From: Chromatiales bacterium
Lineage (GTDB): Bacteria; Pseudomonadota; Gammaproteobacteria; Steroidobacterales; GCA-2729495
DNA: 64,000 nt
NCBI GenBank assembly: GCA_020351875.1
Contig: CP070671.1
Span: 32,011 to 96,010, forward strand
Direction: 5' to 3'
Shown in pieces: positions 24,872 to 41,646 of this stretch. How positions within the stretch are numbered: position 1 is the stretch's first letter; each line of letters begins with the position of its first letter. The notes beneath the pieces were generated by a model that saw nothing but the letters and a program-made list of their open reading frames with translations, did not search any database and was not told the origin of the DNA. The translations under genes were made by a program, and so were the position numbers.

Positions 24872-25708
24872 CTAGGTCGTATGGTCCCGGTGGCACATCA
24901 AGCACTCCATGTGCCCTTGCTGGTTCCACCTCGGCGCTTTTTTGGTGGCAGTGGACGGCCCGTGGCACATGACACAGTGCGAGATCTCTTCTGATGGTTT
25001 CCAAGCAGGCGCAACCCATTCGCCCTTGAAAAACTCGTTGAGTGCCAGCGTCACCGTGTATGCAACTTCACCAACCACCTTCGCGCAACGTTCTATTTTC
25101 TCAGCTGTATTAATATTCGCGCCCGCTGCCAGCGCCCATTTCGAAACGGACGTATGGCACAGAGGCGACATGGCCTTCACCCTGATCTGATCGGGAATTG
25201 GAGAGATATCGTCAAATCGGTCAGTCGGAAATTCTTGCTCCGCATACCACCAGAACAATCGGTCGACAATCTGGTTATTCTGGAGAATCTTGTCGCGTTC
25301 CTCGCCGAAGGTGACCATGTTGATAATCGTGGAGGCACCAGCCAGCGCACCGCACAACGTGCCATGTCCGCCGAAGCCTGACGCCGCATGAGCCATCATC
25401 ATGTCGGGCAACGTCGTCCACGGGTGACCGACTTCCTCCTTCAGTAGACTAAGTATGCTCAGGAATGAACCTGTGCCGCAGCCACCCTTATCCTTGTAGA
25501 AGCGATAGGCACGCCGTCCAGCTTCCAATGGGTCGAGCGTTGTCCAAGGCCATGGCAGTGGCGTTGCGGCGGGCCGCGGCGCAGCTTCGCCCGTCGCACC
25601 CGCTGACCTGTTGATTGATCCAACGGCTCCTCCCGCGAGCAAAACTGCTGATGCCGCCAGTACATCGCGTCTGGGCCACTTACTGCGTGTCGGGTGTTGG
25701 GCGTTCAT
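24872..25708 (-). CDS. Tat-exported split-Soret-type diheme cytochrome (C_GCAxxG_C_C-like)
   Basis: 278 aa from ATG 25708 with GGAG 6 bases upstream. A twin-arginine leader 'WPRRDVLAASAVLLAGGA' suggests export after folding. The middle holds a Cys-bearing helical domain ('YKDKGGCGTGSFLSILSLL', 'FGGHGTLCGALAGASTI'), as in C_GCAxxG_C_C proteins. Two hemes lie at the end: CVMCHGPST and CLMCHRDHT. Split-Soret cytochromes are dimeric diheme proteins of unknown physiological role, best known in sulfate reducers; Tat export of such a cytochrome is notable. Confidence 0.8.
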   Translation of the reverse strand: MNAQHPTRSKWPRRDVLAASAVLLAGGAVGSINRSAGATGEAAPRPAATPLPWPWTTLDPLEAGRRAYRFYKDKGGCGTGSFLSILSLLKEEVGHPWTTLPDMMMAHAASGFGGHGTLCGALAGASTIINMVTFGEERDKILQNNQIVDRLFWWYAEQEFPTDRFDDISPIPDQIRVKAMSPLCHTSVSKWALAAGANINTAEKIERCAKVVGEVAYTVTLALNEFFKGEWVAPAWKPSEEISHCVMCHGPSTATKKAPRWNQQGHMECLMCHRDHTT

Positions 25709-26061
25709 GTTCGTCTCCAAGGCAAGTTAACCGCCGAATCAGAACTCGATCTCCGGAGCGTGGATGTCAACGTCGACCGACAAGCCAGCGCGTTTGTGCT
25801 TCACCTGCGCACCGGAGCAGCGATAGAAAATATCGCCCCTTAGTGAACGGGCCTCAATACGGTATTTCCGATAAACGACATGGATGTCGATTCTGCGAAC
25901 AGCTCCCGGGGCGCTGTAGGGTCTCCCGCGCAATGTCTGCTTTGGGTCGAAAGCAGTCGTCCGCCGCGTTGCGGCAGGATAACTCGCCCTGGGGAGTTCA
26001 CCTGATTTTTGACCCGGTACGAAATAACGATGAGGGCCAGGTCGTCGTTTGGGATATCCGG
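25709..26061. other. Gap with a possible decayed gene tail and an inverted repeat
   Basis: On the minus strand the frame ending at 25739 reads protein-like only over its last 50 codons ('IDIHVVYRKYRIEARSLRGD', 'IFYRCSGAQVKHKRAGLSVD'), with no start codon of its own. It may be the tail of a lost gene. At 25937-25956 CTGCTTT-GGGTCG-AAAGCAG forms a perfect 7-bp hairpin of a dispersed-repeat style. Confidence 0.4.
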
Positions 26062-27525
26062 TCACGGTCTTTCGAAAACCTGGCGCCAATCCGAACGCGG
26101 ATCCAGCGAGACCGGCTTGACGTCCCCCGGTCGTCGGCCTTGTTTTTCGCAGGCCGAAAGATAGGCCGCTTCGGCGTCGCCGTTCACCTGCAAAGTCTGC
26201 GCGGGCCGGAGCTGGCCCATCTGAACGGCCCATCGATAATGAACATTCTCCTGCAACCGCTGCTCCAGGTCATGGGCCGGTGGCGGTGACCTGGCGAACA
26301 ACGTGTAACCGGCGCCATCGGGTGCCAGCAAGCAAAACCCCCTGACGTCGAGATCGCGGATGATGGAAGCAACAAAGGCGTCCGTTAACTTTTCACCACA
26401 GATGTCCGACACCAGGTCCTGGCGGCCGAGAAAGCGAATGCAGGGCGTTCTCTCCAGGAACCCCGTCACTGCGACACGATCTCCCAGCCGGTACCGCAAC
26501 AGGCCACCTCCGGTCGTCACGATGACGGTGCCCTCGTCGCCCTCGCGTAAGTCAGCGACTCGCAACAGGCGGCCGTCATCCTGCTCGAACTCGAAGTAGT
26601 GGCTGGTAATTGCCAGCGGGCGCTGGCCACGGAATGGCAGGGAAACAAAAGCCTCTGTCGCAATCAGTCCCTTGGGCTGAATTGGCGTCTCCGGGAACCA
26701 CCGCTTCAAAGTTGCCAGCTGTCCCTGGGCCTGGCCATCGGTCCAGCACGAGATGAGTCCTAGTCTCGGCCAGGGGTTGGACAGTACCTCTCTCTGCAGA
26801 CGGCGCCCGCAAACGGTCACCCCGTCGCGAAGTTCCGCCAGCAGCGCATCGCGATCGCGTTCGAATTCCCGCATCAGGCTGGTCAGAAAGCTTGGATTCC
26901 AGACCGAGATCAGCCGCAGCTCCGGTTCGGCCAGAAGCAGCAGCAGTGTCGCGCGGCGAAAGTTATCTACCGACAGGTGGCGTACCTCAGCGGGAACGGC
27001 CAGGACCCGGTCCATTAGGAACTTGCCGTAGCGCCCGAGATAGGCGCTGTCTTCCTCGAACCCGACGGGGATACCGCCAGGCGTTCGCTGCTGTTGGAAG
27101 ACCGGCGATATTGACCAGTAAGCAGGGCCTGCCAGCAACGCGGGCTGCCGTGATAGCAGGTCATAAGCCCACGCGTGGATCGCCCGATTGAACTGCCGGC
27201 GCAACAACGGTGTGGAAGGCACGAGCTTGTTTGCCGCGCTGCTGCCACTGGTGGGCTCGAACCGCGTAATCGCCTGGCGCGTCAGGACATTAGGCTGGCC
27301 CTGGGCCGCGCGCTGCACCAGGGGCAGAAAGTCCTCCCAGGTGCGAGGCGCGAGTTCCTCGAAGCGCCCGGTCATCACAGCCGTGTCGCTCGAGTGCCGG
27401 CAGATTTCGGCCAGGACCGCGGCCTGCGCGCGTTCCGGATCACGCAAGGCCGCGTTGAACCGGCGCCAGTCGGGGAGACACGTGGCCACCCAGGCAGTGT
27501 TTGATACGGTCGCCGAGAGTTTCAT
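26062..27525 (-). CDS. GH3-family acyl-adenylating (amido synthetase-like) enzyme
   Basis: 487 aa, last gene of a seven-gene overlapping operon (ATGA overlap with the gene before). GH3 signatures: phosphate loop 'FEPTSGSSAANKLVPST' at about 90-105, 'GLIATEAFVSLPF', 'VTTGGGLLRYRLGDRV' and 'LVSDICGEKLTDAF'. Plant GH3 enzymes activate carboxylic acids with ATP and join them to amino acids; bacterial members occur in specialised clusters. Here it probably forms the last amide or ester bond of an unknown product, the acyl part likely coming from the radical SAM steps (inference). Confidence 0.85.
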   Translation of the reverse strand: MKLSATVSNTAWVATCLPDWRRFNAALRDPERAQAAVLAEICRHSSDTAVMTGRFEELAPRTWEDFLPLVQRAAQGQPNVLTRQAITRFEPTSGSSAANKLVPSTPLLRRQFNRAIHAWAYDLLSRQPALLAGPAYWSISPVFQQQRTPGGIPVGFEEDSAYLGRYGKFLMDRVLAVPAEVRHLSVDNFRRATLLLLLAEPELRLISVWNPSFLTSLMREFERDRDALLAELRDGVTVCGRRLQREVLSNPWPRLGLISCWTDGQAQGQLATLKRWFPETPIQPKGLIATEAFVSLPFRGQRPLAITSHYFEFEQDDGRLLRVADLREGDEGTVIVTTGGGLLRYRLGDRVAVTGFLERTPCIRFLGRQDLVSDICGEKLTDAFVASIIRDLDVRGFCLLAPDGAGYTLFARSPPPAHDLEQRLQENVHYRWAVQMGQLRPAQTLQVNGDAEAAYLSACEKQGRRPGDVKPVSLDPRSDWRQVFERP

Positions 27526-28244
27526 TCGCCCGTTACGCGACGCCAGACCCGGCGACCGGCCGGTGTCAGATTGTCGGACGATATGCGAGTGATGCAGGCC
27601 AGCTCGTCACCCCGCAAGTGCCCCGGGTTCGCCTTGACGAAGAATTCGACATCCGGGTTGCGGAGTTGCCGCTCGTCAACCGGGGACACCCCTTCCCTCA
27701 AGGCTCCCCCGCCGGGCAGACACACGACGCCATCCTGATAGCGGGCGCCGAAGCGTCGTTGCGCCAGGGTGTCGAGCAAGGCCTGCGCGGACGGCGGCGT
27801 CTGCGCATCGTAACGAGGCCAGAATTCCTTGAAGAAAGTCGGCAGGTATCGATAGGTGCGATACCCGCTGCAGATCAAAAACCAGTAAAGGGGCGACTGG
27901 TGCTGCTCACTGGTCCGCACGGCCAACTCGAGCCAGCAACGCTCCAGGATCCCCGATCCCCAGTATGCGCGGTCGACAATCGTGTCGCCGGAGAACAGCA
28001 CCGGCAGTTCATCGCCGTTAATTCGTTCCAGGCTTGTCTGTGCCGTTGAAAACCCAACCAGCTCGGCACCCGCGTAGATCAGGATCACATGATCTTTGTC
28101 AGCGAGATCGGCTTCGAAAGTACTTCGGTCACGATGCACAAAATACTTCTGGAACAGCTCATACATGGCCTCGATGGTCGGCGGCCCCACGGCCTCCTGC
28201 CTGACGATCCTGCCCTCCATGGTTTCCGGTTCTCGAAGCCTCAC
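27522..28244 (-). CDS. GNAT-like protein in the radical SAM/GH3 operon
   Basis: 240 aa, overlapping both neighbours by 4 bases. 'DLADKDHVILIYAGAELVGF' and 'STAQTSLERI' look like the first strands of an acetyltransferase fold, and 'FSGDTIVDRAYWGSGILERC' like the acyl-CoA loop. A long central part, 'LYWFLICSGYRTYRYLPTFF', is unlike standard GNATs. Possibly an N- or O-acyltransferase for the pathway product; function otherwise unknown. Confidence 0.65.
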   Translation of the reverse strand: MRLREPETMEGRIVRQEAVGPPTIEAMYELFQKYFVHRDRSTFEADLADKDHVILIYAGAELVGFSTAQTSLERINGDELPVLFSGDTIVDRAYWGSGILERCWLELAVRTSEQHQSPLYWFLICSGYRTYRYLPTFFKEFWPRYDAQTPPSAQALLDTLAQRRFGARYQDGVVCLPGGGALREGVSPVDERQLRNPDVEFFVKANPGHLRGDELACITRISSDNLTPAGRRVWRRVTGE

Positions 28245-29338
28245 AGCGTGGCGATCTCCAGGTGCGCGGGACGCTGATCGATTCCCGAAATCTCATCACG
28301 ATGGCCTGCCCATACCGCAAGACACAGCAGAGACCACTGTGCCGTGCCGCCAAAGTGCGCTTTGACGGCCGGAAGGCGTGGATCACGCTCGGAGAAACCC
28401 GTCGTCAGGTTGGGTATGGCGCGATCACGGGCACCGCCATAGGCATGAGACAGCAGGGCCAATGTGAGTTCCTGGTCGTCGTCATCCACCGCGAGGTGAG
28501 ACAGGTAAGCGTGGGCGAAAGCGCTGCCGCGTGCCGGCAGGTGGGGCACACTCAAAAGCGGCGCTGCGAGGTTTACCAGGCCCCGAGTCAATTTAATCGC
28601 GCGCGCGTAATTCTTGATCACGGACTGCTTGAATGCGCTCTGGTCCCAGAGCGCCACGCAACCAATAATGCGCCCGCCATCATGGGCGACGGTGAAGTCC
28701 GAGATCGACAACCCCAACGTGCGTACCTGGTCATGAAAGTCTTCGGCTTTCCAAGCCACCGCGAACTGCCGGCGCGCACCGTTGCGGCGCAGGCAGGCGA
28801 CGATGCCTTCCAGGTCCTCCTCGCTAGCCGCTCGCACTGCGAAATCTTCGTTGGCGCGCCGCCGCCGCCACGTGGGGATGACCAGCGTGCAGATCCGCTC
28901 AACGGGCACGAACTCCGGTAGAAAAGGCTTCGGTGCATGCAGCAGGCTCCGGGTGACGGAGCTGTCTGCCATCATCGTCGTGATCCCCCAGCTGTCCCCG
29001 TGCTCGTTCATGAGCTGGTGAAGGTATTGAAAGGCGGCCGGGGTCACGCGCCCGCGCCGCCACTCTGACTCCACGCGCGCCATGGTCATATAGCCGACCT
29101 CATGTACGGCGCCGTTCACGAACATGTCACGACGAGCGTAGGTACCGGTTCCCACCAGGCGATCGCCGACGCGAATTGCAACGATATCGACCTGATCGCC
29201 CTCGATGCCTGCGGCCCGGAAAAAGCTCGGCTCGCGTTCGAAGGCCACGGTAATCGCCCCCGGCACGTGAATGTCCCGCATCAGGCGCCGCAACCCGGCA
29301 TCATCAGCTGCGGAGGCAATCTCGACCACCGGTTCCAT
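28241..29338 (-). CDS. GNAT-like acyltransferase, apparent tandem fold
   Basis: 365 aa, translationally coupled to both neighbours (4-base overlap before, 1 base after). The N-terminal half has 'IRVGDRLVGTGTYARRDMFV' and 'VGYMTMARVESEWRRGR', an acetyl-CoA-loop-like pattern. The second half repeats a weaker version ('AVRAASEEDLEGIVACLRRN', 'HDGGRIIGCVALWDQ'). It may be a double-GNAT enzyme, one half catalytic. Likely acylates an intermediate of the operon's product. Confidence 0.7.
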   Translation of the reverse strand: MEPVVEIASAADDAGLRRLMRDIHVPGAITVAFEREPSFFRAAGIEGDQVDIVAIRVGDRLVGTGTYARRDMFVNGAVHEVGYMTMARVESEWRRGRVTPAAFQYLHQLMNEHGDSWGITTMMADSSVTRSLLHAPKPFLPEFVPVERICTLVIPTWRRRRANEDFAVRAASEEDLEGIVACLRRNGARRQFAVAWKAEDFHDQVRTLGLSISDFTVAHDGGRIIGCVALWDQSAFKQSVIKNYARAIKLTRGLVNLAAPLLSVPHLPARGSAFAHAYLSHLAVDDDDQELTLALLSHAYGGARDRAIPNLTTGFSERDPRLPAVKAHFGGTAQWSLLCLAVWAGHRDEISGIDQRPAHLEIATL

Positions 29339-30711
29339 CAGCCTTCCGCCTTGAGGTATTCCCCGCGCCAGCCTTCGTCACCCAGCGGATAGTAGTCGCG
29401 AGCACTGACATCGCTCCGCAGCAAGCCGTTGATCAGGAAAAAGTTTCTCAGCATGAAGGCGTCCGCGCGATTGACCGGATCCATGCTGCGCCTGAGGATG
29501 CTGGGCCAGGTGTAGAACTTGGCCCTGGCCCCCACGCACTGACGTTGCAGTTCCTCGGGCGACATTCTGGTGGGGCGGAAGGGAATTCGGTTATAGCTGT
29601 ACTCGGGATCCAGCCACCACGCGTCGTACAACAATCGCGACTCGCGCTGCAGGCGCTCGTACAGGGCCGTACCCGGAAATGGCGTGAGGTGATTGAAGGC
29701 CGCGATATAGAACTTGTGGCGCTTGGAAAATTCCACCGTAGCCCGGAACGTGTCCACGGTGTCGTCGTCGTAGCCAAAGATGAAGGTGGGATAAAGCCGG
29801 ATACAGAACCGGCGCAGGTTTTCCAGGGCTTTCTCGTAGCCGCCTTTCATGGTGTTGAAGCCTTTCCCCATGCGCTTCAGGTTGGCCTCGTTCAGGCTCT
29901 CGAAGCCAATCAGCACACCCATGCAGCCCGAGTCGCGAATCAGCCCCAGGAACTCTTCGTCGTGCGCGGCGTTGATGCTGGCCTGACTCACCCAGCGGAC
30001 ATTCAGCGCACCGAGTTCGCGAAAGAACTCCTTCGCCTCCTGCAGATTCGACGTGATGTTGTCGTCAACGAAAAAGATCAGCTTGTGGCCATGTTTCGCC
30101 TTGATCTCTGCCAACTCGGCCAGCACATCGCCCGTGTCGCGACGCGTCTGCTGATGCTCGAACACGGTTTGTACGGCACAGAACTCACACCGAAAATGGC
30201 AGCCACGGCCGACTTCCACCAGGCCGATCGGCAGGTAGCGCTTGCTCGAGAATATGCTGCGGTCAGGTGAGTATCCGCGGAGTTCCGGACGGCGGGGCGC
30301 GCGATAGACTTTCTGCGGCGTGCCCGCGCGATAGTCATCGATGACACCTGCCCAGATCTCCTCCGCCTCCCCGATGACAGTCGAATCGGCCCATTGCTGC
30401 ACCTCCTCCGGAACCAGCGTGGCGTGAAAGCCACCCATGACCACGGGCACCCCGCGCCGCCGGTATTCGCTGGCAATCTGATAAGCCCGCTTCGCCGTAT
30501 AGGTTTCTACAGATATGCCGACCAGGTCTGTCGGCTCGTCGAACGGTATCTCCTCCATTCGATCATCGTAGAAGCGGATGTCGACATCCGACGGTGTCAG
30601 GCCCGCGATCATTGCGGGTGGCAATGGCTCCATTTGCCATGAGCGAATATACGGCTGCCCCACTCGGCGACCGATGCAGGGGTGGACCAGGGTAAGGCGG
30701 AAACGGCTCAT
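29338..30711 (-). CDS. B12-binding domain radical SAM protein 4
   Basis: 457 aa from ATG 30711, which overlaps the preceding stop by 4 bases; longer frames are artefacts. The N-terminal Rossmann-like B12 domain ('VDIRFYDDRMEEIPFDEPTD', 'GVPVVMGGFHATLVPEE') lacks DxHxxG, as usual in this class. The cluster motif is CHFRCEFC (Cys171/175/178). Later come 'LIFFVDDNITSNLQEAKEFF', 'GVLIGFESLNEANLKRMGKG' and a C-terminal 'PFRPTRMSPEEL' domain. Such enzymes methylate or form C-C bonds at unactivated carbons, or do ring chemistry. It is nearest to copies 1 and 2 by eye. Confidence 0.88.
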   Translation of the reverse strand: MSRFRLTLVHPCIGRRVGQPYIRSWQMEPLPPAMIAGLTPSDVDIRFYDDRMEEIPFDEPTDLVGISVETYTAKRAYQIASEYRRRGVPVVMGGFHATLVPEEVQQWADSTVIGEAEEIWAGVIDDYRAGTPQKVYRAPRRPELRGYSPDRSIFSSKRYLPIGLVEVGRGCHFRCEFCAVQTVFEHQQTRRDTGDVLAELAEIKAKHGHKLIFFVDDNITSNLQEAKEFFRELGALNVRWVSQASINAAHDEEFLGLIRDSGCMGVLIGFESLNEANLKRMGKGFNTMKGGYEKALENLRRFCIRLYPTFIFGYDDDTVDTFRATVEFSKRHKFYIAAFNHLTPFPGTALYERLQRESRLLYDAWWLDPEYSYNRIPFRPTRMSPEELQRQCVGARAKFYTWPSILRRSMDPVNRADAFMLRNFFLINGLLRSDVSARDYYPLGDEGWRGEYLKAEG

Positions 30712-32045
30712 CGGGCTGGGGTCGAAACCTCCTGGCCAACGAACCAGTCGCAGTTGTAGTGGGTGTGCAGATGGTGGGCGTAAAAGCGATAGCCCAGGTT
30801 TGCGGCGATGCTGATCGGGAGCTGCAGTCTGCTTCTCGCCAGCCGCCGGAAGATACTGCGCCGACTGTAGACATGTTTCCACGTCCACTCGTGCCCCGCA
30901 GCGAGTTCCTGGACGCTCATCTGGCTGGGCTGGAACACCACGTGCTGACCGTCATAGATGTCCCAGTCCCGGGTGAGGATCCGCCCCTCTTGGTGCAGTC
31001 GCTGGTACAGGGCCGTGCCGGGAAACGGTGTTGCGATCGCAAAACGCGGGAGATCAATTGCGGCATCGATCGCAAACCTGGCGGTTTCCTCGAACACCTT
31101 CGGCGTGTCGCTATCGAGCCCGAACACGAAAGTGCCCATCAGCGCAATGCGATGACGATGCAATAGGCGAACGAACTCGTGAAAATTGATGGTCTGGTTA
31201 AACCGCTTGCACGATACATCCAGGCTGTCCTGGTTCACGGATTCCAGGCCGACCAGCAGACCCCTGCAGCCACTGCGGGCCATCAGTTCCAGCAAGTCCC
31301 GGTCGTGCTCCAGCAGCACGGTTGCCAGGCCAAACCAGCGGATATCCAGGGGTACGAGGGCCTCGAACAGGCGCCGCGCGTAGCCCCTGTCCGCAATCAG
31401 GTTGAGGTCGATGAACAGTGCCTTCCGCGTGCCCGTTGAGCGGATATCCCTGACGACGTCGGCCACCGGCTTCTGGTAGGGCCGCCGCCCCCATGCCGCG
31501 GGCACCACGCAGAATTCGCAATTGTGGGCGCAACCCCTGGTCGCCTCGAAGACACTGGTCGTCGAGTATTTTTTCGCTGCCAGCAAATCCCGCCGCGGTA
31601 ACGGCAGGCCCGACAGGTCGAGTTGCCCCTGATCGTAGCGCGGCTGCATGTTTCCGGCGGCAAAGTCCCGCAGCAGCTGTGGCCACGTGTGTTCCGCATA
31701 ACCGGTGACGATGCAATCCGCGTGCGGCGCGGCGTCCTCCGGGATCAACGTCACGTGGGGGCCACCCATGACTACCGGGATACCCTGAGCGCGATAACGT
31801 GCCGCCAGTTCGTAAGCACGTTTCGCCGAACCGGTAATCACGGTCATCGCAATAAGGTCCGCATCCGGACGACTCGGTGCCGCCTCGATGCCTTCATCAA
31901 CAATCTGCACCTCCGCATCGAGCTCGTCCGGGATATAAGCCGCGAGCGTCACCAGCGTGAGCGGGGAATATCGGAGGCTCTTGCGGAAGATGCCGCCGCG
32001 GTAGCGATACAGTGGCCCGGCGGGTGAAATAAAGACTATTTTCAT
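30708..32045 (-). CDS. B12-binding domain radical SAM protein 3 (most divergent copy)
   Basis: 445 aa from ATG 32045, overlapping the previous stop by 4 bases. B12 domain: 'VQIVDEGIEAAPSRPDADLI' and 'GIPVVMGGPHVTLIPED'. Cluster motif CAHNCEFC (Cys172/176/179), then 'KALFIDLNLIADRGYARRLF' where the other three copies have a 'VDDN' motif, and 'GLLVGLESVNQDSLD'. The C-terminus 'HVVFQPSQMSVQELAAGHEW' also differs. It therefore probably performs a different step from its three neighbours. Confidence 0.88.
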   Translation of the reverse strand: MKIVFISPAGPLYRYRGGIFRKSLRYSPLTLVTLAAYIPDELDAEVQIVDEGIEAAPSRPDADLIAMTVITGSAKRAYELAARYRAQGIPVVMGGPHVTLIPEDAAPHADCIVTGYAEHTWPQLLRDFAAGNMQPRYDQGQLDLSGLPLPRRDLLAAKKYSTTSVFEATRGCAHNCEFCVVPAAWGRRPYQKPVADVVRDIRSTGTRKALFIDLNLIADRGYARRLFEALVPLDIRWFGLATVLLEHDRDLLELMARSGCRGLLVGLESVNQDSLDVSCKRFNQTINFHEFVRLLHRHRIALMGTFVFGLDSDTPKVFEETARFAIDAAIDLPRFAIATPFPGTALYQRLHQEGRILTRDWDIYDGQHVVFQPSQMSVQELAAGHEWTWKHVYSRRSIFRRLARSRLQLPISIAANLGYRFYAHHLHTHYNCDWFVGQEVSTPAR

Positions 32046-33400
32046 CGTGGCCTCACCAAATGTCTCGACAGCCCGAATAACATGCCCTGCTTCAGCAAAG
32101 CCTCGCGCGCAACCAGCGGATTGTATTGGAGGTAGATGCCGAGTCGCGTCAGCGAGCTCAGGTGCGTCTTGAAATCCCAGACGCGGCGGAAAATGGACGC
32201 CTTGGTGTTGAACTTCTTCCTGCAATAGTACGCCGCTTCCGTCAGCTGATCCGGCGTCATGTTCCTAGGGACGAACGCGGCGTGGTTGAACCGGTAGTCG
32301 GGATGCAACCACCACTGGCCATCAAACAGCAGACGATTTTCCGCCGCCAGCTGATCGTACAGAGGCGTTCCCGGATACGGCATCAGGATGTTGAATGCGG
32401 CAAAGCAAAACTTGTTCTCGATCGCGAAATCGACCGTCTCCCGCACCGATTGTTCTGTGTCGTGGTCGCAACCCAGGACAAAAGCCGCCCACGTCTGGAG
32501 GTGATGAGCACGCAGGATCTCGCATTGTGCCTGGTACCTGTCCCAGTCACCCCGCAACAAATTCGGCGCTTTTCTCATCTCGCGCAAGCTTCGTGGATCG
32601 AGAGACTCGAACCCAACCACGTGCCCGAGACAGCCGCTGGCCTCGAGCAGATCCATGAGTTCCGGGTCGTCGGCCATATCAATCGACGCCTGGGATACCC
32701 ACCGGACCCCCAGGGGAATCAGCTCGCGCAGAAAGGGCTTCGCGGCTTCGTGATCAGCCAGGAAATTATCGTCGACAAAAAAGATGACGCGGTCGTCCAG
32801 TTGCTCGATCTCGGCGAGAACCTCGTTCGTGGGGCGAACGCTGTGATTGTGATGAAAGAAGCCGTGGATAGCACAGAAACTGCAGCCATACCTGCAGCCC
32901 CGGCTGAACTGCATCAACGCGATGGGCAAATAGTCTTTGTCGGCGAACAGGTCGCGGCGGGGCAGGACACCCCCGACCTGGGGTGCGCCCACTGGAGCGC
33001 TGTAACGCGCTTTCAACTCACCGTTCCTGGCATCTTCAATGACGTCGGCCCACTGAAACTCGGCGTCGCCCGTGTACACCGCATCGGAGTGCTGCGCGGC
33101 CTCGTCGGGCGCCAGGGTCGGGTGAAAGCCGCCCATGACCACCGGGACACCACGCTTGCGGAACTCCGCCGAGATTTCATAGGCCCTGCGCGCGGTATAC
33201 GTGTGGGCCGAGATCGCCACGAGATCCGTCGGTTCGTCGTACGGAATCGCTTCGATACGGTCGTCGTAGAGGGCGCACTCTACGTCCGGCGGCGTCAGGC
33301 CCGCCAGGACTGCCATCTCCAGCGGCTCCATGCGCCCGTCATCGAGGAACGGGCCTGACGGGAGCCGCCCGATATTCGGCCTGATGAATGTCGTCTTCAT
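32042..33400 (-). CDS. B12-binding domain radical SAM protein 2
   Basis: 452 aa; ATG shares one base with the previous stop (TGATG). Order: B12-binding domain ('CALYDDRIEAIPYDEPTDLV', 'GVPVVMGGFHPTLAPDE'), cluster motif CRYGCSFC (Cys169/173/176), 'RVIFFVDDNFLADHEAAKPF', 'GHVVGFESLDPRSLREMRKA', and a C-terminal 'NHAAFVPRNMTPDQLTEAAY' region. Same architecture as copies 1 and 4, so tandem duplication followed by divergence is likely. Confidence 0.88.
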   Translation of the reverse strand: MKTTFIRPNIGRLPSGPFLDDGRMEPLEMAVLAGLTPPDVECALYDDRIEAIPYDEPTDLVAISAHTYTARRAYEISAEFRKRGVPVVMGGFHPTLAPDEAAQHSDAVYTGDAEFQWADVIEDARNGELKARYSAPVGAPQVGGVLPRRDLFADKDYLPIALMQFSRGCRYGCSFCAIHGFFHHNHSVRPTNEVLAEIEQLDDRVIFFVDDNFLADHEAAKPFLRELIPLGVRWVSQASIDMADDPELMDLLEASGCLGHVVGFESLDPRSLREMRKAPNLLRGDWDRYQAQCEILRAHHLQTWAAFVLGCDHDTEQSVRETVDFAIENKFCFAAFNILMPYPGTPLYDQLAAENRLLFDGQWWLHPDYRFNHAAFVPRNMTPDQLTEAAYYCRKKFNTKASIFRRVWDFKTHLSSLTRLGIYLQYNPLVAREALLKQGMLFGLSRHLVRPR

Positions 33401-34734
33401 CAGGTACTGACCGCCGGTCTCCCGAGGGTGGGCGCGCCAAGCTGACGACCCTGCTTGGCGTGAATCTCATGCCTGGACACGAGGTTGGACAACAGGTAAA
33501 TACCGGCACGGTACGGTGTTCGCAGATTCGCGTGCGGATCGAGCAATCGCCTGACTATTGATGACGCGGTGTTGAATGCCGTTCTCGCGCGGTAGCAGCC
33601 TTTCGTCAGCTCCTGCGCTGTCATACCGCGCGGATGGAACGTGGCTTCGCCATACCGGAAGCGGCTGTCCAGCCACCACTTGTCGTAGATCAGGCGCCCT
33701 TCACGTTTCAGCCGCTCATAAAGATCGGCCTTGGGTGTCGGTGTCAACGGATTGAAGTTGGCCAGCAGAAACTTGTGCTCGATGCTGAACTCGACTGCCG
33801 GTTCGAATGCGTCCGGGCCATCCTGGTCATAGCCGAAGACAAAGGTCCCGTAGATCATGATCCCGGCGTCCCGGAAGCGCCGGATCGCCGTCGGATAATC
33901 AATCCACTTGCTGTTCCAGCCTTTGCGCATTTGCTGCAAATTAGCCGGGTCCAGCGACTCGAACCCGACTAACACGGATAGACAACCGCTTTTCGCCATC
34001 AGTTCCACGATCTCAGGATATCGAGCGATGTCGATGGAAACCTGGCACGACCAGCGAATGTTCAGCGGGATCAGCGCGGTGAAAAGCTCCTTCGCCCGAT
34101 CTACGTCGACAAAGATGTTGTCGTCGACCAGGAACACGTGACGCTTGTTCTGGCGTTCAATTTCCGCCACCACATCCCGGACTGGTCGTTGCCGCAGGTT
34201 CGTGCCATAGAAAGCGTGGATCGAGCAGAACTCGCAATTGAACCGGCATCCACGACCATACTGGACCAGTGCGAGTGGCGAGTAGCGCTTGCCGGCAAAA
34301 ATGCTGCGGTCCGGTTTCAGGCCTTCCAGCGTTGGTTGGAAATACGGTCCGTATCGGGGCCGCAGGCGCCCGGCCCTGGCGTCCCTGACCACCTGCTCCC
34401 AAACGCCCTCGGCGTCACCGAGGACGACGGCATCCGCAAACATCGAGGCCTCGTCCGGCATAAAGGTCGGGTGATAACCGCCCATGACGACCGGGATGCC
34501 ATGTTGGCGGTACTGCGAGGCAACCTGGTAGGCGCGCCGCGCGGTGTAGGTCTCGACGGTCATTGCCACCAGGTCCGTCGGCTCGTCGACGGGAAGCGAC
34601 TCCAGTCTCTCGTCGTACAGGACGGTCTCGATGTCAGGCGGCGTGAGACTCTTCAGGATCGCGAAACACAGCGGCTCCATCGCGTCATAGGAACGCGCTG
34701 GATAAAAGTTCGGTCTCACAAAGGTAATTTTCAT
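33400..34734 (-). CDS. B12-binding domain radical SAM protein 1, first of four
   Basis: 444 aa, first gene of the overlapping operon and 64 bases after the RND gene on the same strand. B12 domain to about 120 ('TVLYDERLESLPVDEPTDLV', 'GIPVVMGGYHPTFMPDE'), cluster motif CRFNCEFC (Cys163/167/170), 'HVFLVDDNIFVDVDRAKELF', 'SVLVGFESLDPANLQQMRKG', and the C-terminal 'EATFHPRGMTAQELTKGCYR'. Uses a [4Fe-4S] cluster, SAM and probably cobalamin in the cytoplasm. Confidence 0.9.
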   Translation of the reverse strand: MKITFVRPNFYPARSYDAMEPLCFAILKSLTPPDIETVLYDERLESLPVDEPTDLVAMTVETYTARRAYQVASQYRQHGIPVVMGGYHPTFMPDEASMFADAVVLGDAEGVWEQVVRDARAGRLRPRYGPYFQPTLEGLKPDRSIFAGKRYSPLALVQYGRGCRFNCEFCSIHAFYGTNLRQRPVRDVVAEIERQNKRHVFLVDDNIFVDVDRAKELFTALIPLNIRWSCQVSIDIARYPEIVELMAKSGCLSVLVGFESLDPANLQQMRKGWNSKWIDYPTAIRRFRDAGIMIYGTFVFGYDQDGPDAFEPAVEFSIEHKFLLANFNPLTPTPKADLYERLKREGRLIYDKWWLDSRFRYGEATFHPRGMTAQELTKGCYRARTAFNTASSIVRRLLDPHANLRTPYRAGIYLLSNLVSRHEIHAKQGRQLGAPTLGRPAVST

Positions 34735-34798
34735 AGCGCTGCAGAAACGCGCAAGTGCCTGTTTTTACAACTAGAGCCGCATTTCAGGCACCGGTCAA

Positions 34799-37066
34799 TC
34801 AGGGTTTATCGCTATGGGTTGCTGCTGCCGGCTCTCGGGTGACTCTCCACGGTACGATACGGAGTGCAGCCGGCAGCAGTACCAGGTCGGCCAACAAAGC
34901 TGTTAGCACAATGATGGCGGTGACCAGGCCAACCTGCTGGCTGGGCACGAAGCGCCCGAGCGTCAGGACCGCAAAGCTCGCGGCCAGTATCAGGCTGGTA
35001 ATCACGACCGGCCGGCCGACTTCCTCTATCGTCGCGCCGATGGCGTCATTCACGTGCATCCGGTCGCGCAGGTAACGCCGGAACGCCGTCAGGAAGTGGA
35101 CGGTATCATCCACCACAATTCCAAGGGCAATGGCACCCACCATCACCGTACCCGGATTCAGACCGATGCCCATCAGGTACATGGCGCCGAGGCCGACAGC
35201 GATCGGGGTCAGGTTGGGGATCATCGCGAACAACGCGAGCCGCCAGGACCGGAAAAGCAACACCATCATCAGCGTGATCACGGCGAATGCCATGGCCAGG
35301 CTCTCAATCTGACCCTCAATAACGTACTTTTCCATCGTCGCCATCAGTCGTGCATACCCGGTCATTTCGACCTGCAGCGCATCGTCGGCGAAGTGGGCCT
35401 TCATCTGCGTTTCTATGGCCGGCACCTGGCCGATGAGCTCCGTCGCCCGGGACAGCGGGACACGGGCGGACAGGCGACCCACCGAATAATCGGCGCTCAC
35501 CCACAGATCCTGGTAACCCCGCCGGTCCAGGCCATCAAGCAACATGTCCGTGACCAGCGTCGTTTTGGGCAACTGCAGTTCCTTTGATTCCTCGCCCTGA
35601 GCAACGCGCATGGCCTCTTTCAGGATGTCCGCTACGGAGAGCACACGACTGATCGCAGTGTTTTCCTCCAGCCACCGCTCGAATTCGTCCAGCCGCGCCA
35701 GGGCGGCCGGCTCCCGCAAGCCGCCTTCGGCAGTCGTGACGAGAAACTCCAGCGAGACGCTGCCGCCGAGCGCAGCGTCGATTCTCTCGGTATCCAGGCG
35801 CGCCGGATCGTCCTCAGGGAACCAGGACATGGGATCCGCCCCCACCTGTACCCGGGCAGCCAGTACGATGAACGCGACGCTGCCGATCGCGAATGCGGGC
35901 ACGATGAGCCGCTCGACGGCCCTTGGCATCGAACCCAGCCAACCCAGCAGCGCGCTCAGCCCGCTGCTGCTCTGCCGATCCAGGTACCGCTGCTCCGGAA
36001 CTCGCAGCAGTCCCAGCGCGGTGGGCAAAAAGAGCATGCTGATCACGAAAGCTGCCATCACGCCAGCGGCCGCGACGACTGCAAATTCCCGGATTGGCTC
36101 GAGGTCGCTCGTGAGTAGCGACAGCAGACCAGCAGCCGTCGTCGCGGAGGTAAAAAAGCACGGGGTCAACAGCCGCGCAATGGTTCTCTCCACCGCGATC
36201 TCCCGGGTGTTCCCGGTCGCGAGCAGCCGGCGATAATGGGCGATCACGTGAATTGAATCCGCAACGCCCACCGCCAACAACAGAGGCAACAGTGCCGTCG
36301 ATATGAGTGTCGTGCGCAACCCGGAAAGCCCCATCAGACCATATGCCCAGATCGCAGCCATCAACACGACGATTAGCGGCAATAACGCAAGCATCAGCCG
36401 GCGGAAAATCAGCTGTGCAAAGACGACAATGATCGCGATCATGATCGGGATCATTAATCTGAGATCGTGTTCGTTGTGACGCATAGCTGCGTCGTCGGTG
36501 ACCGGTGTGCCGGACAGGCTCACCTGCACCGGTATTCCGGATGTTTCACCGGAAACGATCGATCGGAGTGCTTCGACCAACGTTCTCTTATTGGCGAACG
36601 TATTGCCCTCGCGCGTCACCTGGACAACGATGGCGGCGGTCCGGGCATCGGCAGTCAGCAAGGTTCCCGTCAGCACTGAATTGGCCAGCGTTTTTTCCCG
36701 AAAATCCGGATCCGAGGTAGCCGCACCGAGGATGCTCGGGCTCGTGAAGGACAACACACGGTGCACGAACGGGGCCTGTTCCGCGGCCCGGGAGATTCCA
36801 TCGATCGCAGCAACGATCTCCGGTGAAAATATGTCATCCGCAAAGAGCGCGATGACGACGATCTCATCGGCACGAAAGCGCCGCGCAAATTCGTTGTAGA
36901 CCAGCAGGTCAGGGTCATTTTCCAGGAACCAGACTTCGATCGAATGGTCCGTGGTCACGCGAGTGGCGAACACGGCCAACCCGGCGGTGATAACGACAAC
37001 GAGCAGCGCGACTACAAGGCGATGCCGGAATAACAGAACCGCGAGCCTCTGGGCACTAAACGACAC
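34799..37066 (-). CDS. RND/MMPL-family transporter
   Basis: 755 aa if GTG 37066 is the start (GGGA about 8 bases upstream); a TTG at 37099 is the alternative. Two halves each begin with one membrane helix and a large periplasmic loop, then five helices: 'LAVLLFRHRLVVALLVVVIT'... and 'LIVPAFAIGSVAFIVLAARV'... Typical segments are 'LLLAVGVADSIHVIAHYRRL' and 'AIALGIVVDDTVHFLTAFRR', carrying the Asp residues used for proton coupling. At this size it resembles hopanoid/lipid exporters (HpnN, MMPL) more than drug pumps. Lying just upstream of the radical SAM operon, it may export the product. Confidence 0.88.
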   Translation of the reverse strand: MSFSAQRLAVLLFRHRLVVALLVVVITAGLAVFATRVTTDHSIEVWFLENDPDLLVYNEFARRFRADEIVVIALFADDIFSPEIVAAIDGISRAAEQAPFVHRVLSFTSPSILGAATSDPDFREKTLANSVLTGTLLTADARTAAIVVQVTREGNTFANKRTLVEALRSIVSGETSGIPVQVSLSGTPVTDDAAMRHNEHDLRLMIPIMIAIIVVFAQLIFRRLMLALLPLIVVLMAAIWAYGLMGLSGLRTTLISTALLPLLLAVGVADSIHVIAHYRRLLATGNTREIAVERTIARLLTPCFFTSATTAAGLLSLLTSDLEPIREFAVVAAAGVMAAFVISMLFLPTALGLLRVPEQRYLDRQSSSGLSALLGWLGSMPRAVERLIVPAFAIGSVAFIVLAARVQVGADPMSWFPEDDPARLDTERIDAALGGSVSLEFLVTTAEGGLREPAALARLDEFERWLEENTAISRVLSVADILKEAMRVAQGEESKELQLPKTTLVTDMLLDGLDRRGYQDLWVSADYSVGRLSARVPLSRATELIGQVPAIETQMKAHFADDALQVEMTGYARLMATMEKYVIEGQIESLAMAFAVITLMMVLLFRSWRLALFAMIPNLTPIAVGLGAMYLMGIGLNPGTVMVGAIALGIVVDDTVHFLTAFRRYLRDRMHVNDAIGATIEEVGRPVVITSLILAASFAVLTLGRFVPSQQVGLVTAIIVLTALLADLVLLPAALRIVPWRVTREPAAATHSDKP

Positions 37067-37258: not shown

Positions 37259-37846
37259 TCAGTCGCGGCGGTAGACGGGGTCGCCTCTGCCGCGTTCGCC
37301 GCGGATATCCAGGACCTTGAACATGCCCTCGTTCCAGATCGAAGTCGTGGGCAGGTTCTGGTTCCAGTCCATCACGACGGTGCGGCGCTTGATTCGCCAC
37401 TCGCCGTCGCGCTTTTCCAGCTTGTCGACGTAACGCCCACCGTAGAAAAAGTCCTGCGGCCCCTCCTGGCCAGGGTCGATGCCGAGCTGGGCCAGGTAAG
37501 TGGGCCCGAAGATGTCGCGAATCCGTTCCGTTGAACCTTTCACACGGTGATAGGCGAGGAGATAGGCCTCCGTGTAAGCCACATCAACGTCCAGTTCCAT
37601 GTGCACGTTGCAGATCGCGTGCTGGGTCACCTCGAACCAGTTCTGGATTTCCTCGACGATGAATTCCGCGAACTCCTCGGCGTTACCATTGAAGACGCCA
37701 TGTTCGTCGTAGCCGTCGGGCCAGTAGACCGTCTTCATCAATTCCACGTCGGCACGATCCAGGGCCCGGCAGTACCGGGTCAGCACGTCGTAGATCTTCT
37801 GCCGGTCGACGACTTCCTGCAGTTCAGCATTGTCGATCACTTTCAT
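37259..37846 (-). CDS. SnoaL/NTF2-like protein (bile-acid dehydratase/ring-hydroxylating beta-like fold)
   Basis: About 195 aa from ATG 37846; longer starts at 37870 and 37879 run into a palindrome, so they are less likely. 'VVDRQKIYDVLTRYCRALDR' then 'LMKTVYWPDGYDEHGVFNG' is the SnoaL_4 opening with the Tyr/Asp pair, and the fold closes with 'FFYGGRYVDKLEKRDGEWRI'. Members act as dehydratases, isomerases or small subunits. Stands alone, but two related proteins occur downstream in the catabolic region. Confidence 0.85.
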   Translation of the reverse strand: MKVIDNAELQEVVDRQKIYDVLTRYCRALDRADVELMKTVYWPDGYDEHGVFNGNAEEFAEFIVEEIQNWFEVTQHAICNVHMELDVDVAYTEAYLLAYHRVKGSTERIRDIFGPTYLAQLGIDPGQEGPQDFFYGGRYVDKLEKRDGEWRIKRRTVVMDWNQNLPTTSIWNEGMFKVLDIRGERGRGDPVYRRD

Positions 37847-37869
37847 GCTCCTGGCGGCTGTCGGGGCCA

Positions 37870-37918
37870 TCGGGGACATTCTTCTTTTCCGCCTAGCGGA
37901 AAAGAAGAATGTCCCCGA
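37870..37918. repeat. Perfect 49-bp palindrome, REP-like element
   Basis: Two 23-base arms (37870-37892 and 37896-37918) are exact reverse complements around a 3-base CTA centre; arms contain GGGGACATTCTTCTTTTCCG. This exact style (GGGGACA...CTTTTCC) is familiar from REP sequences of environmental gammaproteobacteria spread by RAYT transposases. It lies just upstream of the SnoaL gene, and its RNA would form a strong hairpin. Confidence 0.75.
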
Positions 37919-38021
37919 CCGGACCTACATCATAGCTGACAAAGCTTGCAGTCATTTTTTTGCCCAAATAGAATCCCACCAAGGGGACCACACACTCAAC
38001 TAATCACAACGGAGCAGTGCA

Positions 38022-38618
38022 ATGTCAGAAGAGACCCAGAAAACACCCAAATTCGATCCGATTACACTCGAGCAGGTCGATGTAAACAAAGATTATCCGA
38101 TGGAGCCCGATGAATTCGAGATACTGTACAAGCACAATTGCTATTGCCACATGGCGCACATATCTCAATACGGCTACCCAATTGTTACCCCCATGTTCTA
38201 CGTGGTTTTGGAAGACGGACATATTTATATCAGTAGCGTCCAAAAGTACCGCAAGAAAATAGAACACCTTATTGAGAATCCAAAGATATCCGTCAGCATC
38301 AGTAATGATGGGTCAAACGCGAAACGGCAGAAATCGATTCAGATTATCGGCAAGGCAGAAGTCTCTTTCGATCAGGAATTGCTGACCAAAGTTCACTGGG
38401 CAATTATTGATAAGTACTGGTGGGACCTCAAAGGCAACGAAGAGATGCGCCAGGCAGCGTTTAAAGGCGTGCACACACCTAACCGGGCCATCATAAAAGT
38501 CATTCCAAACAAGAATTCACCAACGTCCTGGGATTTCGGCAAAATGGTTCAAAGTTACGAGAGAGGCGTTTGGTTTAATGAGGCTTACGAGATGTGCAAG
38601 CCTTACGACGTCCGGTAG
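38022..38618 (+). CDS. Pyridoxamine-5'-phosphate-oxidase-like flavin-binding split-barrel protein
   Basis: 198 aa with GGAG about 8 bases before the ATG. 'HNCYCHMAHISQYGYPIVTP' and 'MFYVVLEDGHIYISSVQKYR', followed by 'KKIEHLIENPKISVSISND', is the FMN-binding split-barrel pattern. Members reduce or oxidise small substrates or bind heme/F420. The gene is clearly more AT-rich than its neighbours and uses different codons, which suggests transfer. A tRNA-Gly remnant follows 40 bases later. Confidence 0.85.
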   Translation: MSEETQKTPKFDPITLEQVDVNKDYPMEPDEFEILYKHNCYCHMAHISQYGYPIVTPMFYVVLEDGHIYISSVQKYRKKIEHLIENPKISVSISNDGSNAKRQKSIQIIGKAEVSFDQELLTKVHWAIIDKYWWDLKGNEEMRQAAFKGVHTPNRAIIKVIPNKNSPTSWDFGKMVQSYERGVWFNEAYEMCKPYDVR

Positions 38619-38660
38619 TACAATAACGCCTCGCGCGTGCACGGTCCGCTGAGTAGTTGA

Positions 38661-38731
38661 GCAGCGCGTGAATGGCAGGGCCCCAGCTTTCCAAGCAGAA
38701 AACGACGGTTCGATTTCCTTCGCCCGCTCCA
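38661..38731 (+). pseudogene. Decayed tRNA-Gly remnant
   Basis: The 3' half matches tRNA-Gly of the CCC/UCC kind: anticodon loop TTTCCAA (anticodon TCC), T-loop TTCGATT, and 3' end CGCCCGCTCCA with encoded CCA. Both stems have mismatches (A-A and C-A in the anticodon stem, C-C in the T stem), and the 5' acceptor and D arm are short and do not pair. It looks like a non-functional copy, such as those left at integration sites. Confidence 0.6.
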
Positions 38732-38734
38732 GAA

Positions 38735-38760
38735 ACCAAAGCCCCGTCAGGGGCTTTGGT
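38735..38760. terminator. Hairpin terminator, probably bidirectional
   Basis: ACCAAAGCCCC-GTCA-GGGGCTTTGGT, an 11-bp perfect stem with a 4-base loop, lies between genes that converge (38618 and 38778). T-rich bases follow on both sides, though the runs are short. It starts 4 bases after the tRNA CCA, as terminators of tRNA genes often do. Confidence 0.65.
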
Positions 38761-38777
38761 GTTTCTGCTTACGTATC

Positions 38778-39218
38778 TCAAGCCATATCGGCGCGATGCC
38801 GGCTCAGGTCACCCAGCAGGTCCGGAGAAATATCGCGCTTCGTGAATCGCCACTCGCCGCCGACCTGCTCGAAGACATCGCGATAGTGCCCGGAAAAGAT
38901 GGGTTGCAGCGGGAAACCGGGCGGTACCGCCTGGAAGACCGTGATGTAGCACTGGGCGGTGGCGTGATTGTCCCCCGGTCCCAGGTCGATCTGTACGTTG
39001 GTCATCGCGTGCTTCGTCAGCGGCTTGCCGTCGTACAGGATCACGTGTTTCAGCGTCTCCATCATCGCCTCGGCGCCGGGCTCACCGCCGCGGGGATCGC
39101 CGAGTACCCGCCACGTGCCGTGCTCGAATAACCGCGCGCAGCCGGCCATGTCGCCTGCATCGAGCCGGAAACAGTACTCGTTCATCAGTGCCTGGATGGC
39201 TTCGCGCGCCTCGGTCAT
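38778..39218 (-). CDS. SnoaL/NTF2-like protein
   Basis: 146 aa. 'AIQALMNEYCFRLDAGDMAG', then 'CARLFEHGTWRVLGDPRGG' is the SnoaL pattern, closing with 'FSGHYRDVFEQVGGEWRFTK'. It is the last gene of a four-gene operon with two ABM-type proteins and an acyl-CoA ligase, so it probably acts on an intermediate of that catabolic route. Confidence 0.85.
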   Translation of the reverse strand: MTEAREAIQALMNEYCFRLDAGDMAGCARLFEHGTWRVLGDPRGGEPGAEAMMETLKHVILYDGKPLTKHAMTNVQIDLGPGDNHATAQCYITVFQAVPPGFPLQPIFSGHYRDVFEQVGGEWRFTKRDISPDLLGDLSRHRADMA

Positions 39219-39239
39219 GGTTCCCGCCTCCAGCCGCCG

Positions 39240-39533
39240 CTATTCCACGAGGTCGAAGAACTGCAGATCCATTTCTTCGGCCAGCGCCTCCAGGATCGGC
39301 GGCACCAGCCGCTCGTGGTCCGGTGCGTCCTGGTGCACCTGGAAGGCCACTTCGTCCTTGAAACGCGAATACACCACGTAGGTGTTCGGCGCTTCCCGGT
39401 GCTTCAGGAAGTCGTAGACGAGTGTGTCCGGCTCGGTGTCGTGGGTGATGTCCGACAACTCCTTCTGCAGAGCTTCGAACTCCGCGATTTTGTCGGGCTT
39501 CACGACCAGCCGGGCGATAAATGCCGTCTGCAT
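39240..39533 (-). CDS. ABM-domain (antibiotic biosynthesis monooxygenase-like) protein
   Basis: 97 aa from ATG 39533 with AGGAG 7 bases upstream. 'FIARLVVKPDKIAEFEALQK' and 'YVVYSRFKDEVAFQVHQDAP' fit the dimeric alpha-beta barrel of quinol monooxygenase YgiN-like proteins. These enzymes work without cofactors or metals on quinol-type substrates, or act as isomerases. Related in shape to the first gene of this operon. Confidence 0.8.
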   Translation of the reverse strand: MQTAFIARLVVKPDKIAEFEALQKELSDITHDTEPDTLVYDFLKHREAPNTYVVYSRFKDEVAFQVHQDAPDHERLVPPILEALAEEMDLQFFDLVE

Positions 39534-39558
39534 AATGACTCTCCTGGTATCGAGTGCT

Positions 39559-41217: not shown

Positions 41218-41222
41218 GGCTG

Positions 41223-41525
41223 CTATTCCATCGGGTCCAGGTACTCGCGCGTGTAGGGCGGATCGCCCCCTTCCATGCAGTCGAGCAGGTTCGGCGCGAT
41301 TTCCTGCAGGTAGGCCGTGTTCATGTGCAACTCTTCGGCAGCCTCGTCCTTGAAAGACTCCATCACGGCAAACTCGCGTGGTCCGCGCAGCCGGAAGAAA
41401 CGGTAGTAAAGCGTATCCGGTTCGTTCGCGTGCACCTGCCGCTCGAGTTCCCGGGCGAGGCGCATAAATTCGTCCTCGCGACCCTCTTTGACCGTCATCC
41501 GGGCCAGGAAAGATACGTTTGCCAC
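41223..41525 (-). CDS. ABM-domain monooxygenase-like protein, first gene of the ligase operon
   Basis: 100 aa with a GTG start at 41525, supported by AAGGAG 6 bases upstream. 'NVSFLARMTVKEGREDEFMR' and 'FRLRGPREFAVMESFKDEAA' match the ABM/YgiN fold. An 18-bp operator-like palindrome (41574-41591) lies 50 bases upstream and is shared with the divergent Rieske ferredoxin gene. Confidence 0.82.
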   Translation of the reverse strand: MANVSFLARMTVKEGREDEFMRLARELERQVHANEPDTLYYRFFRLRGPREFAVMESFKDEAAEELHMNTAYLQEIAPNLLDCMEGGDPPYTREYLDPME

Positions 41526-41573
41526 GTCGCACTCCTTATATATGCGTTTGTGATGATAGCACCGGCGGCAAAA

Positions 41574-41591
41574 AAACAGTCAGATTTGTTT
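41574..41591. promoter_or_regulatory. Operator-like palindrome, site A of a shared pair
   Basis: AAACAGTCAGATTTGTTT, nearly palindromic. It lies between the divergent ABM-ligase operon and the Rieske ferredoxin gene. It matches a site at 63363-63380 at 16 of 18 bases. A TetR-type regulator is the likely binder; TetR genes lie at 17099 and 52924. Confidence 0.6.
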
Positions 41592-41646
41592 TTTTTATAA
41601 CGCGGATGTTAACTTGCGCTGGCCCCAGGTGCAGGAGCCGCCCACA

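Follow-up and report, generated by a model that had tools for sequence, protein, structure and literature searches.

The question raised by this locus is what could be made by a run of overlapping genes in which four B12-binding radical S-adenosylmethionine (SAM) proteins, rS1 to rS4, stand beside two GNAT-fold proteins, GNAT1 and GNAT2, and a GH3-type ligase, with an RND permease gene upstream. The genes lie in 64,000 nucleotides of contig CP070671.1 of a Chromatiales bacterium (positions 32,011 to 96,010; this whole stretch is called the window below), the genome of which is a single contig of 3.49 Mb and has its relatives, as far as the loci are named, in Gammaproteobacteria. It is clear that the seven genes form an operon and a genuine system rather than an oddity of one strain; they belong to a conserved gene set that is shared and swapped among at least eight bacterial phyla, the constant part of which is the GNAT1-GNAT2-GH3 triad together with rS3 and rS4, with rS1, rS2 and the RND permease being optional. 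In our judgement the chances are about even that the operon serves to make an N-acyl amide not described before, most probably a lipid of the lipoamino-acid type. The features, in window coordinates, are as follows.

34799-37066, minus strand: RND, an MMPL-type RND permease, optional partner (PF03176; GTG start, with an alternative TTG at 37099 possible)
33400-34734, minus strand: rS1, B12-binding radical SAM protein, paralog 1 (PF04055 and PF02310)
32042-33400, minus strand: rS2, B12-binding radical SAM protein, paralog 2 (PF04055; PF02310 just below cut-off)
30708-32045, minus strand: rS3, B12-binding radical SAM protein, paralog 3, core (PF04055 and PF02310)
29338-30711, minus strand: rS4, B12-binding radical SAM protein, paralog 4, core (PF04055 and PF02310)
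28241-29338, minus strand: GNAT1, predicted tandem-GNAT acyltransferase with an N-myristoyltransferase fold, core triad (AlphaFold2 model and fold matches)
27522-28244 (GTG start) or 27522-28220 (ATG start), minus strand: GNAT2, predicted single GNAT-fold protein, core triad (AlphaFold2 model)
26062-27525, minus strand: GH3-type acyl-adenylating amide ligase, core triad (PF03321 and PF23571)

By open reading frame (ORF) calling, the seven genes run on the minus strand from 34734 to 26062 with successive overlaps of 1, 4, 4, 1, 4 and 4 bases, and a gap of 64 bases separates rS1 from the RND gene upstream; this is the layout described in an earlier reading made from the letters of the DNA alone (the sequence-only reading). 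A search with GH3 in the order to which the window belongs found all seven genes, differently ordered, in two more genomes, together with a third cluster that is cut off by the end of its contig. A probe derived from rS3 found 72 loci, some of them in the same genomes, and mapping by tblastn placed rS4 in 65 of these, GNAT1 in 63, GNAT2 in 59, GH3 in 56, rS1 in 31, rS2 in 27 and RND in 6. At least three of the five core genes were present in 63 of the 72, distributed over Pseudomonadota (23), Verrucomicrobiota (15), Chloroflexota (9), Planctomycetota (6), Myxococcota, Acidobacteriota and Gemmatimonadota (2 each), Fidelibacterota and Lentisphaerota (1 each), with 2 unassigned. Among 65 loci analysed, 54 carry the five-gene core, 28 carry those five alone out of the seven, and 22, the window included, carry all seven. 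Since the seven-gene set recurs in 21 other loci, in differing orders, and the core in 54 of 65, the recurrence is far beyond chance; furthermore, because order and strand vary between loci, the grouping is not the mere inheritance of a single arrangement. The sequence-only reading had looked to conserved synteny in unrelated genomes as support for a system, and unrelated phyla do indeed share the core, with the genes adjoining in other genomes and phyla and not only in this strain. Cultured carriers include Chthoniobacter flavus, Neoroseomonas oryzicola and Budvicia aquatica, and in the window's own genus GNAT2 is absent from the four other genomes that were searched.

Sequence divergence is also consistent with genes that travel together. 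rS3 is about 60% identical across phyla, its mean identity within phyla being 0.66 against 0.61 between them, and the distance matrices of the five core genes correlate (r 0.90 for rS3 with rS4, 0.88 for GNAT2 with GH3), as expected for co-travelling genes. Between phyla the radical SAM proteins are 0.61 identical and GNAT1, GNAT2 and GH3 0.31, 0.39 and 0.39, respectively, in a comparison where the loci were picked by rS3 and the protein families differ in rate; such a difference would be in keeping with a radical chemistry that stays the same on a shared portion of the product, and with variable acyl or amine parts.

The boundary between core and optional genes was drawn by searching whole genomes. 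rS1 occurs in fewer than half of the probe loci (31/72), mostly together with rS2. In all 24 of the genomes tested that have a two-radical-SAM cluster, rS2-like matches anywhere in the genome stop at 50% identity, the level of rS4; rS1 and rS2 are therefore genuinely absent there, and their location elsewhere in these genomes is ruled out. When sought independently of rS3, GNAT2 was found in 9 of 369 gammaproteobacterial genomes, and the 4 of the 369 with rS3 orthologs all fall within these nine. In Verrucomicrobiota it was found in 9 of 195 genomes, with GNAT1 and GH3 nearby in all nine (loci L096 and L099 among them) and rS3-like genes in the genomes of at least eight. In twelve genomes the rS3 locus is missing part or all of the triad; a search of each complete genome found GNAT2 in ten of them and GH3 in eleven. 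Genes that are retained while scattered argue for a shared task. The sequence-only reading had taken a GH3 gene with at least three B12 radical SAM genes and an RND gene as the set that should co-occur; the association of GH3 with radical SAM genes is kept also in genomes that have them unlinked, but that full set does not define the system, RND being present in 6 of 72 loci and rS1 and rS2 being optional.

Several individual genomes illustrate how the genes may be dispersed. In three Chloroflexota loci (L083, L084, L085) and two from Riflebacteria (L101, L103), rS genes, or distant rS3 homologs (35-38%), lie amid unrelated genes, with GNAT2 and GH3 elsewhere in the genome. Genome G444 holds the cluster in two loci, GNAT2-rS1-rS2 with AurF-like, hexapeptide and desaturase genes (L108:9156-15269) and GH3-rS3-rS4-GNAT1 (L117:7807-13272). 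In a Verrucomicrobiota genome (G557) a radical SAM protein with an HMPTM zinc-ribbon domain adjoins the triad (L124:5500-6816). This family, which we take to include the archaeal tetraether synthase, would hint at a lipid substrate; a variant in which such non-B12 enzymes replace the B12 radical SAM proteins was rejected, as this genome has rS3 and rS4 at another place.

All four radical SAM proteins score above the cut-off of PF04055 and carry the CxxxCxxC motif, as the sequence-only reading had stated, in the sites RGCRFNCEFC (rS1), RGCRYGCSFC (rS2), RGCAHNCEFC (rS3) and RGCHFRCEFC (rS4); the B12-binding domain PF02310 is above cut-off in rS1, rS3 and rS4 and marginal in rS2 (32.0 against 32.1 bits). 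The pattern R[GS]CxxxCxFC is kept in 32/32 orthologs of rS1, 27/27 of rS2, 60/69 of rS3 and 68/68 of rS4. Within the window the four are 34-46% identical to each other, and each shares mostly 50-70% identity with its ortholog from other phyla, more than with its neighbours. In a tree of 182 sequences, built with FastTree only, they form four separate clades, each with members from more than one phylum (support 99, 100, 99 and 85 for rS1 to rS4), the rS1 clade comprising 27 rows with one long-branched rS1 row, from L042, outside it. Since the clades span phyla and ortholog identity exceeds paralog identity, the quartet represents four old lineages kept side by side and not recent copies, and four different functions would be the natural inference. 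In one metagenome-assembled genome rS4 is broken by an apparent frameshift (L055:4610-5963, on a contig shared with L029) with the adjoining genes open, which could be a sequencing error.

The identity of these proteins with known radical SAM equivalogs is ruled out, every NCBIfam model tested being below cut-off. For BchE (TIGR02026, cut-off 481 bits) rS1 to rS4 score 90.8, 73.6, 92.9 and 98.8 bits, and for HpnJ (TIGR03471, cut-off 578) 76-94 bits, the best being 93.6; the best scores were 88.1 bits for PhpK (TIGR04479, cut-off 600), 76.0 for the ladderane-associated TIGR04072 (cut-off 360), 58.4 for HpnR (TIGR04367, cut-off 650) and 65.8 for AprD4 (NF033070, cut-off 500), the structure of which (6fd2) is matched at E 1e-17. 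The heavily C-methylated product that the sequence-only reading proposed is not borne out by these comparisons; as the nearest relatives include the non-methylases BchE and AprD4, methylation is only one option alongside C-C coupling and other radical chemistry.

The triad offers the clearest indication of what kind of compound may be made. The sole Pfam match of GNAT1 is a sub-threshold GNAT hit (PF13527), with no match to a Pfam N-myristoyltransferase family. In its AlphaFold2 model (predicted local distance difference test, pLDDT, 95.5) the best structural matches are N-myristoyltransferases, with a Foldseek E of 4e-14 and, by VIA, Z 24.6 and a root-mean-square deviation of 3.3 over 301 residues on superposition of the whole predicted chain, such matches showing fold only. 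GNAT1 is thus predicted with high confidence to be a tandem-GNAT protein that adopts the N-myristoyltransferase fold from end to end, and because of this fold it brings a precedent of long-chain N-acyl transfer. GNAT2 has no Pfam or NCBIfam match; its model (pLDDT 95.2) has a GNAT fold (Z about 12.8), and S77-G78-D79-T80, W113, G119, N198 and C209 are invariant in 54 homologs. The models therefore predict with confidence a GNAT fold for each of what had been called two GNAT-like proteins, and the part of these proteins is now revised to a central one.

GH3 proteins activate a carboxylate as the acyl-adenylate, which is then passed to an amine. The window's GH3 protein scores above cut-off with PF03321 (87 bits) and PF23571 (53 bits), plant GH3 structures are matched at E 2e-35 with the family profile, and R344-Y345, D349, E378-K379 and K470 are invariant in 46 orthologs. 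Three acyl-transfer or amide-forming enzymes are thus found together, and therefore an acylated amine or amino acid is suggested as the product. A characterised bacterial relative supports the sequence-only reading of GH3 as the amide former: OlsH, the GH3-type ligase of the Singulisphaera acidiphila ornithine-lipid pathway, joins a fatty acid to ornithine with ATP and Mg to give N-acyl-ornithine, in a reaction that depends on its motif-1 serine (PMC12493201). The OlsH model NF052613 (cut-off 620 bits) is weakly matched by 42 of the 46 GH3 orthologs, with a best E of 1.4e-20 and 49 bits for that of L105, and by these scores the GH3 protein here is a distant relative of OlsH.

Other genes accompany the core less regularly. 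The RND protein belongs to the general MMPL family (PF03176, 115 bits) and is below cut-off for HAE3 (TIGR00921, the nearest NCBIfam model, 210.9 against 351.9 bits) and HpnN (TIGR03480, 101.9 against 751.9 bits); it adjoins the cluster in the window, in L027 and in 6 of the 72 loci found by the probe, mainly in Gammaproteobacteria. Recurrent neighbours in the 72 loci are a membrane fatty acid desaturase (28), a SnoaL-like protein (22), an alpha/beta hydrolase (15) and a PAP2 phosphatase (14), and the desaturase, SnoaL-like and PAP2 genes occur with both the rS1/rS2 and the two-radical-SAM types of cluster. A small membrane protein is present in 13 of 29 rS1/rS2 loci and in none of 36 loci lacking these genes. 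The alpha/beta-hydrolase-like protein, so labelled from its sequence pattern with no Pfam match, is in none of the 29 and in 16 of the 36, with a Rieske oxygenase alongside in 14 of the 16. Its exclusion from rS1/rS2 loci holds at p about 0.03 in the 28 loci that are flanked by 4 kb in each direction, by Fisher tests that assume independent loci, which related genomes are not, and in a sample where some loci are cut by contig ends.

In the five gammaproteobacterial genomes that have GNAT2 and lack rS3 (G006, G180, G341, G401 and G354), no radical SAM protein of the rS1-rS4 family was found at E 1e-30. Four of these carry GNAT2, GH3 and GNAT1 with an NQR2/RnfD-type UnbU-like protein, which is whole in three of them as an UnbU-UnbV fusion, the contig of G006 ending inside it; the fifth, G354, has a distant and looser triad. 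This alternative cluster, at L105:1901-8074, L107:9393-15488 and L111:3554-9728, holds GNAT2-GH3-GNAT1 and a fused NQR2/RnfD-FG-GAP-UnbV protein of about 900 amino acids, with Rieske and SnoaL-like genes in each and a desaturase in L105 and L107, in genomes without radical SAM proteins of this family. To our knowledge the roles of UnbU and UnbV are themselves unsolved. Chlorophyll synthesis provides, in BchE and AcsF, a precedent for steps carried out without and with oxygen. Tentatively, and with more doubt than confidence, the clusters may be seen as a horizontally mobile and undescribed class of bacterial amide-lipid pathways in which a fixed triad is joined to interchangeable modules, either two or four B12 radical SAM enzymes, which would be oxygen-independent, or the UnbU/UnbV fusion, Rieske, AurF-like and desaturase proteins, which would be oxygen-linked, so as to make the same product or close analogues with or without oxygen.

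A complete cluster is also found on a plasmid of Citrobacter portucalensis from a gull (L127:13720-25815, equivalent to NZ_CP134684.1 51417-63512), typed as mobilizable, IncFIB/IncFII. It comprises GNAT2, GH3, rS3, rS4, GNAT1, rS1, rS2, PAP2, a SnoaL-like gene, a fifth B12 radical SAM gene and a desaturase, annotated with family names only. Compared with the cluster of Budvicia aquatica, protein identity ranges from 48% for GNAT1 to 81% for rS3. A search for close relatives at high DNA identity in E. coli genomes and other plasmids found none.

We propose that GH3 would join a fatty-acid-derived carboxylate to an amine or amino acid, using ATP and passing through an acyl-adenylate to the amide, and that GNAT1 and GNAT2 would add acyl groups taken from acyl-coenzyme A or acyl carrier protein. 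rS3 and rS4, and in the window's variant rS1 and rS2 as well, may use SAM radicals and cobalamin on unactivated carbons of the chain or scaffold, by C-methylation, by forming C-C bonds or by some other radical chemistry, and the RND permease could export the product from the inner membrane. It is plausible that the scaffold comes from central metabolism as a fatty acid and an amine or amino acid. The amide and the lipid substrate are suggested by the gene families, and the recurrence across loci of lipid-type neighbours (desaturase, SnoaL-like, alpha/beta hydrolase and PAP2) would support them. Uptake of B12 by the host is plausible, the best TonB receptor of its genome scoring 305.8 bits with the BtuB cut-off at 599.7.

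Several points weigh against this proposal. No metabolite is linked to any member of the cluster. The fold does not fix the substrate of the GNATs, and members of this superfamily also acetylate sugars, proteins and small amines. The window's own GH3 protein does not match the OlsH model at E 0.001, and its family lies far below the cut-off. The use of cobalamin by rS1-rS4 is suggested by the binding domain alone, and no cobalamin riboswitch was found in the window at E 0.1 or in six other loci at the gathering score. RND is an optional partner, and both it and the desaturase are inconstant. Finally, the AurF-like, Rieske and UnbUV neighbours would equally suit a small, tailored natural product.

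That last alternative, in which an acylated amine or amino-acid-derived amide outside the membrane, perhaps an antibiotic or signal, is tailored by radical SAM methylation, the GNATs and GH3 and leaves by RND efflux, we think unlikely though by no means negligible. The patchy distribution of the genes (GNAT2 in few Gammaproteobacteria and in none of the four congeners) fits it, as do the copy on a mobilizable plasmid and an identity within phyla hardly above that between them, all typical of exchangeable secondary-metabolite clusters, and UnbU/UnbV, present in the alternative cluster, are known from enediyne clusters. However, the window operon lacks a polyketide synthase (PKS), a non-ribosomal peptide synthetase and a carrier protein, the N-myristoyltransferase fold and the desaturase and PAP2 neighbours indicate long chains, and the persistence of scattered genes in several Chloroflexota and Riflebacteria genomes is unlike most antibiotic clusters.

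The remaining explanations fare much worse. Tandem B12 radical SAM genes are well known in clusters for ribosomally synthesised and post-translationally modified peptides (RiPPs), and weak, sub-threshold matches to ApyD and TIGR03975 could point to methylation or cross-linking of a peptide that the GNATs then acylate; such a RiPP or protein-modification system is nevertheless highly improbable, as these scores are far under the RiPP cut-offs, the overlaps of 1-4 bases and the single 64-base gap leave no room for a precursor ORF between the window genes, and the Citrobacter cluster has no annotated coding sequence below 190 amino acids from GNAT2 to the desaturase. A pathway that cyclises or modifies tetrapyrroles or hopanoids anaerobically would account for the place among the top NCBIfam matches of BchE, at 74-99 bits, and of HpnJ, at 76-94 bits, but their cut-offs of 481 and 578 bits are unmet, GH3, tandem GNATs and a desaturase have no known place in such pathways and no such genes are prominent among the recurrent neighbours; we regard this too as very improbable. 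Chance juxtaposition, or strain-specific tandem duplication of a single radical SAM gene, might be read from the 34-46% identity of the paralogs, but is refuted by their greater identity to orthologs in other phyla and by the four-clade tree. The N-acyl amide operon therefore remains our preferred explanation.

Neighbouring genes in the window appear to lie outside the system. Downstream of GH3, 24872-25720 encodes a protein of the C_GCAxxG_C_C type that resembles split-Soret cytochrome c (132.6 bits with NF047622, cut-off 400), which is not among the recurrent neighbours of the clusters in other genomes. Upstream of RND, 37259-42824 holds SnoaL-like proteins, an acyl-CoA-ligase-like protein and a dehydratase-like gene, as judged by eye, outside the conserved cluster.

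Most known B12 radical SAM enzymes act singly or in pairs on one product; here four distinct paralogs that diverged long ago remain together next to an acylation triad for which no role has been described. If the proposal is true, it would provide a new class of lipid or metabolite, assign functions to four orphan radical SAM families and to a GNAT family that lacks a Pfam model, and allow aerobic and anaerobic enzyme replacement within a single pathway to be tested. The product can be sought directly, because the set is present in cultured bacteria and complete on the Citrobacter plasmid. A described pathway with the same gene set, which would have spoken against the sequence-only reading, was not found in a literature search whose coverage excluded most subscription papers and all bioRxiv preprints; that reading was right in kind and is recentred here on the GNAT1-GNAT2-GH3 triad with rS3-rS4.

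Comparison with known systems places the cluster near several of them. HpnR, the hopanoid methylase, HpnJ and TIGR04072 share the B12-binding and radical SAM architecture and are tied to lipid carbon chemistry, whereas here their models are unmet and two or four paralogs would act with an amide-forming triad. The anaerobic cyclase BchE and the diol dehydratase AprD4 are among the closest by score and show that the branch need not be methylases, but their cut-offs (481 and 500 bits) are unmet and their partner genes differ. The predicted GNAT1 chain superposes whole on eukaryotic N-myristoyltransferases, although it is about 15% identical to them, bacterial, and within a biosynthetic operon. 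Four gammaproteobacterial genomes pair an UnbU-type protein, as associated with enediynes, with the triad instead of B12 radical SAM proteins; in this case there is no PKS among the genes beside the triad, and the UnbU variant is not that of the window. With OlsH and OlsI the cluster has a GH3-type ligase in common, and an alpha/beta-hydrolase-like protein lies nearby in some clusters as OlsI does near OlsH (PMC12493201), but the OlsH system is described without radical SAM or GNAT proteins, whereas clusters of the window type add two GNATs and two to four B12 radical SAM proteins.

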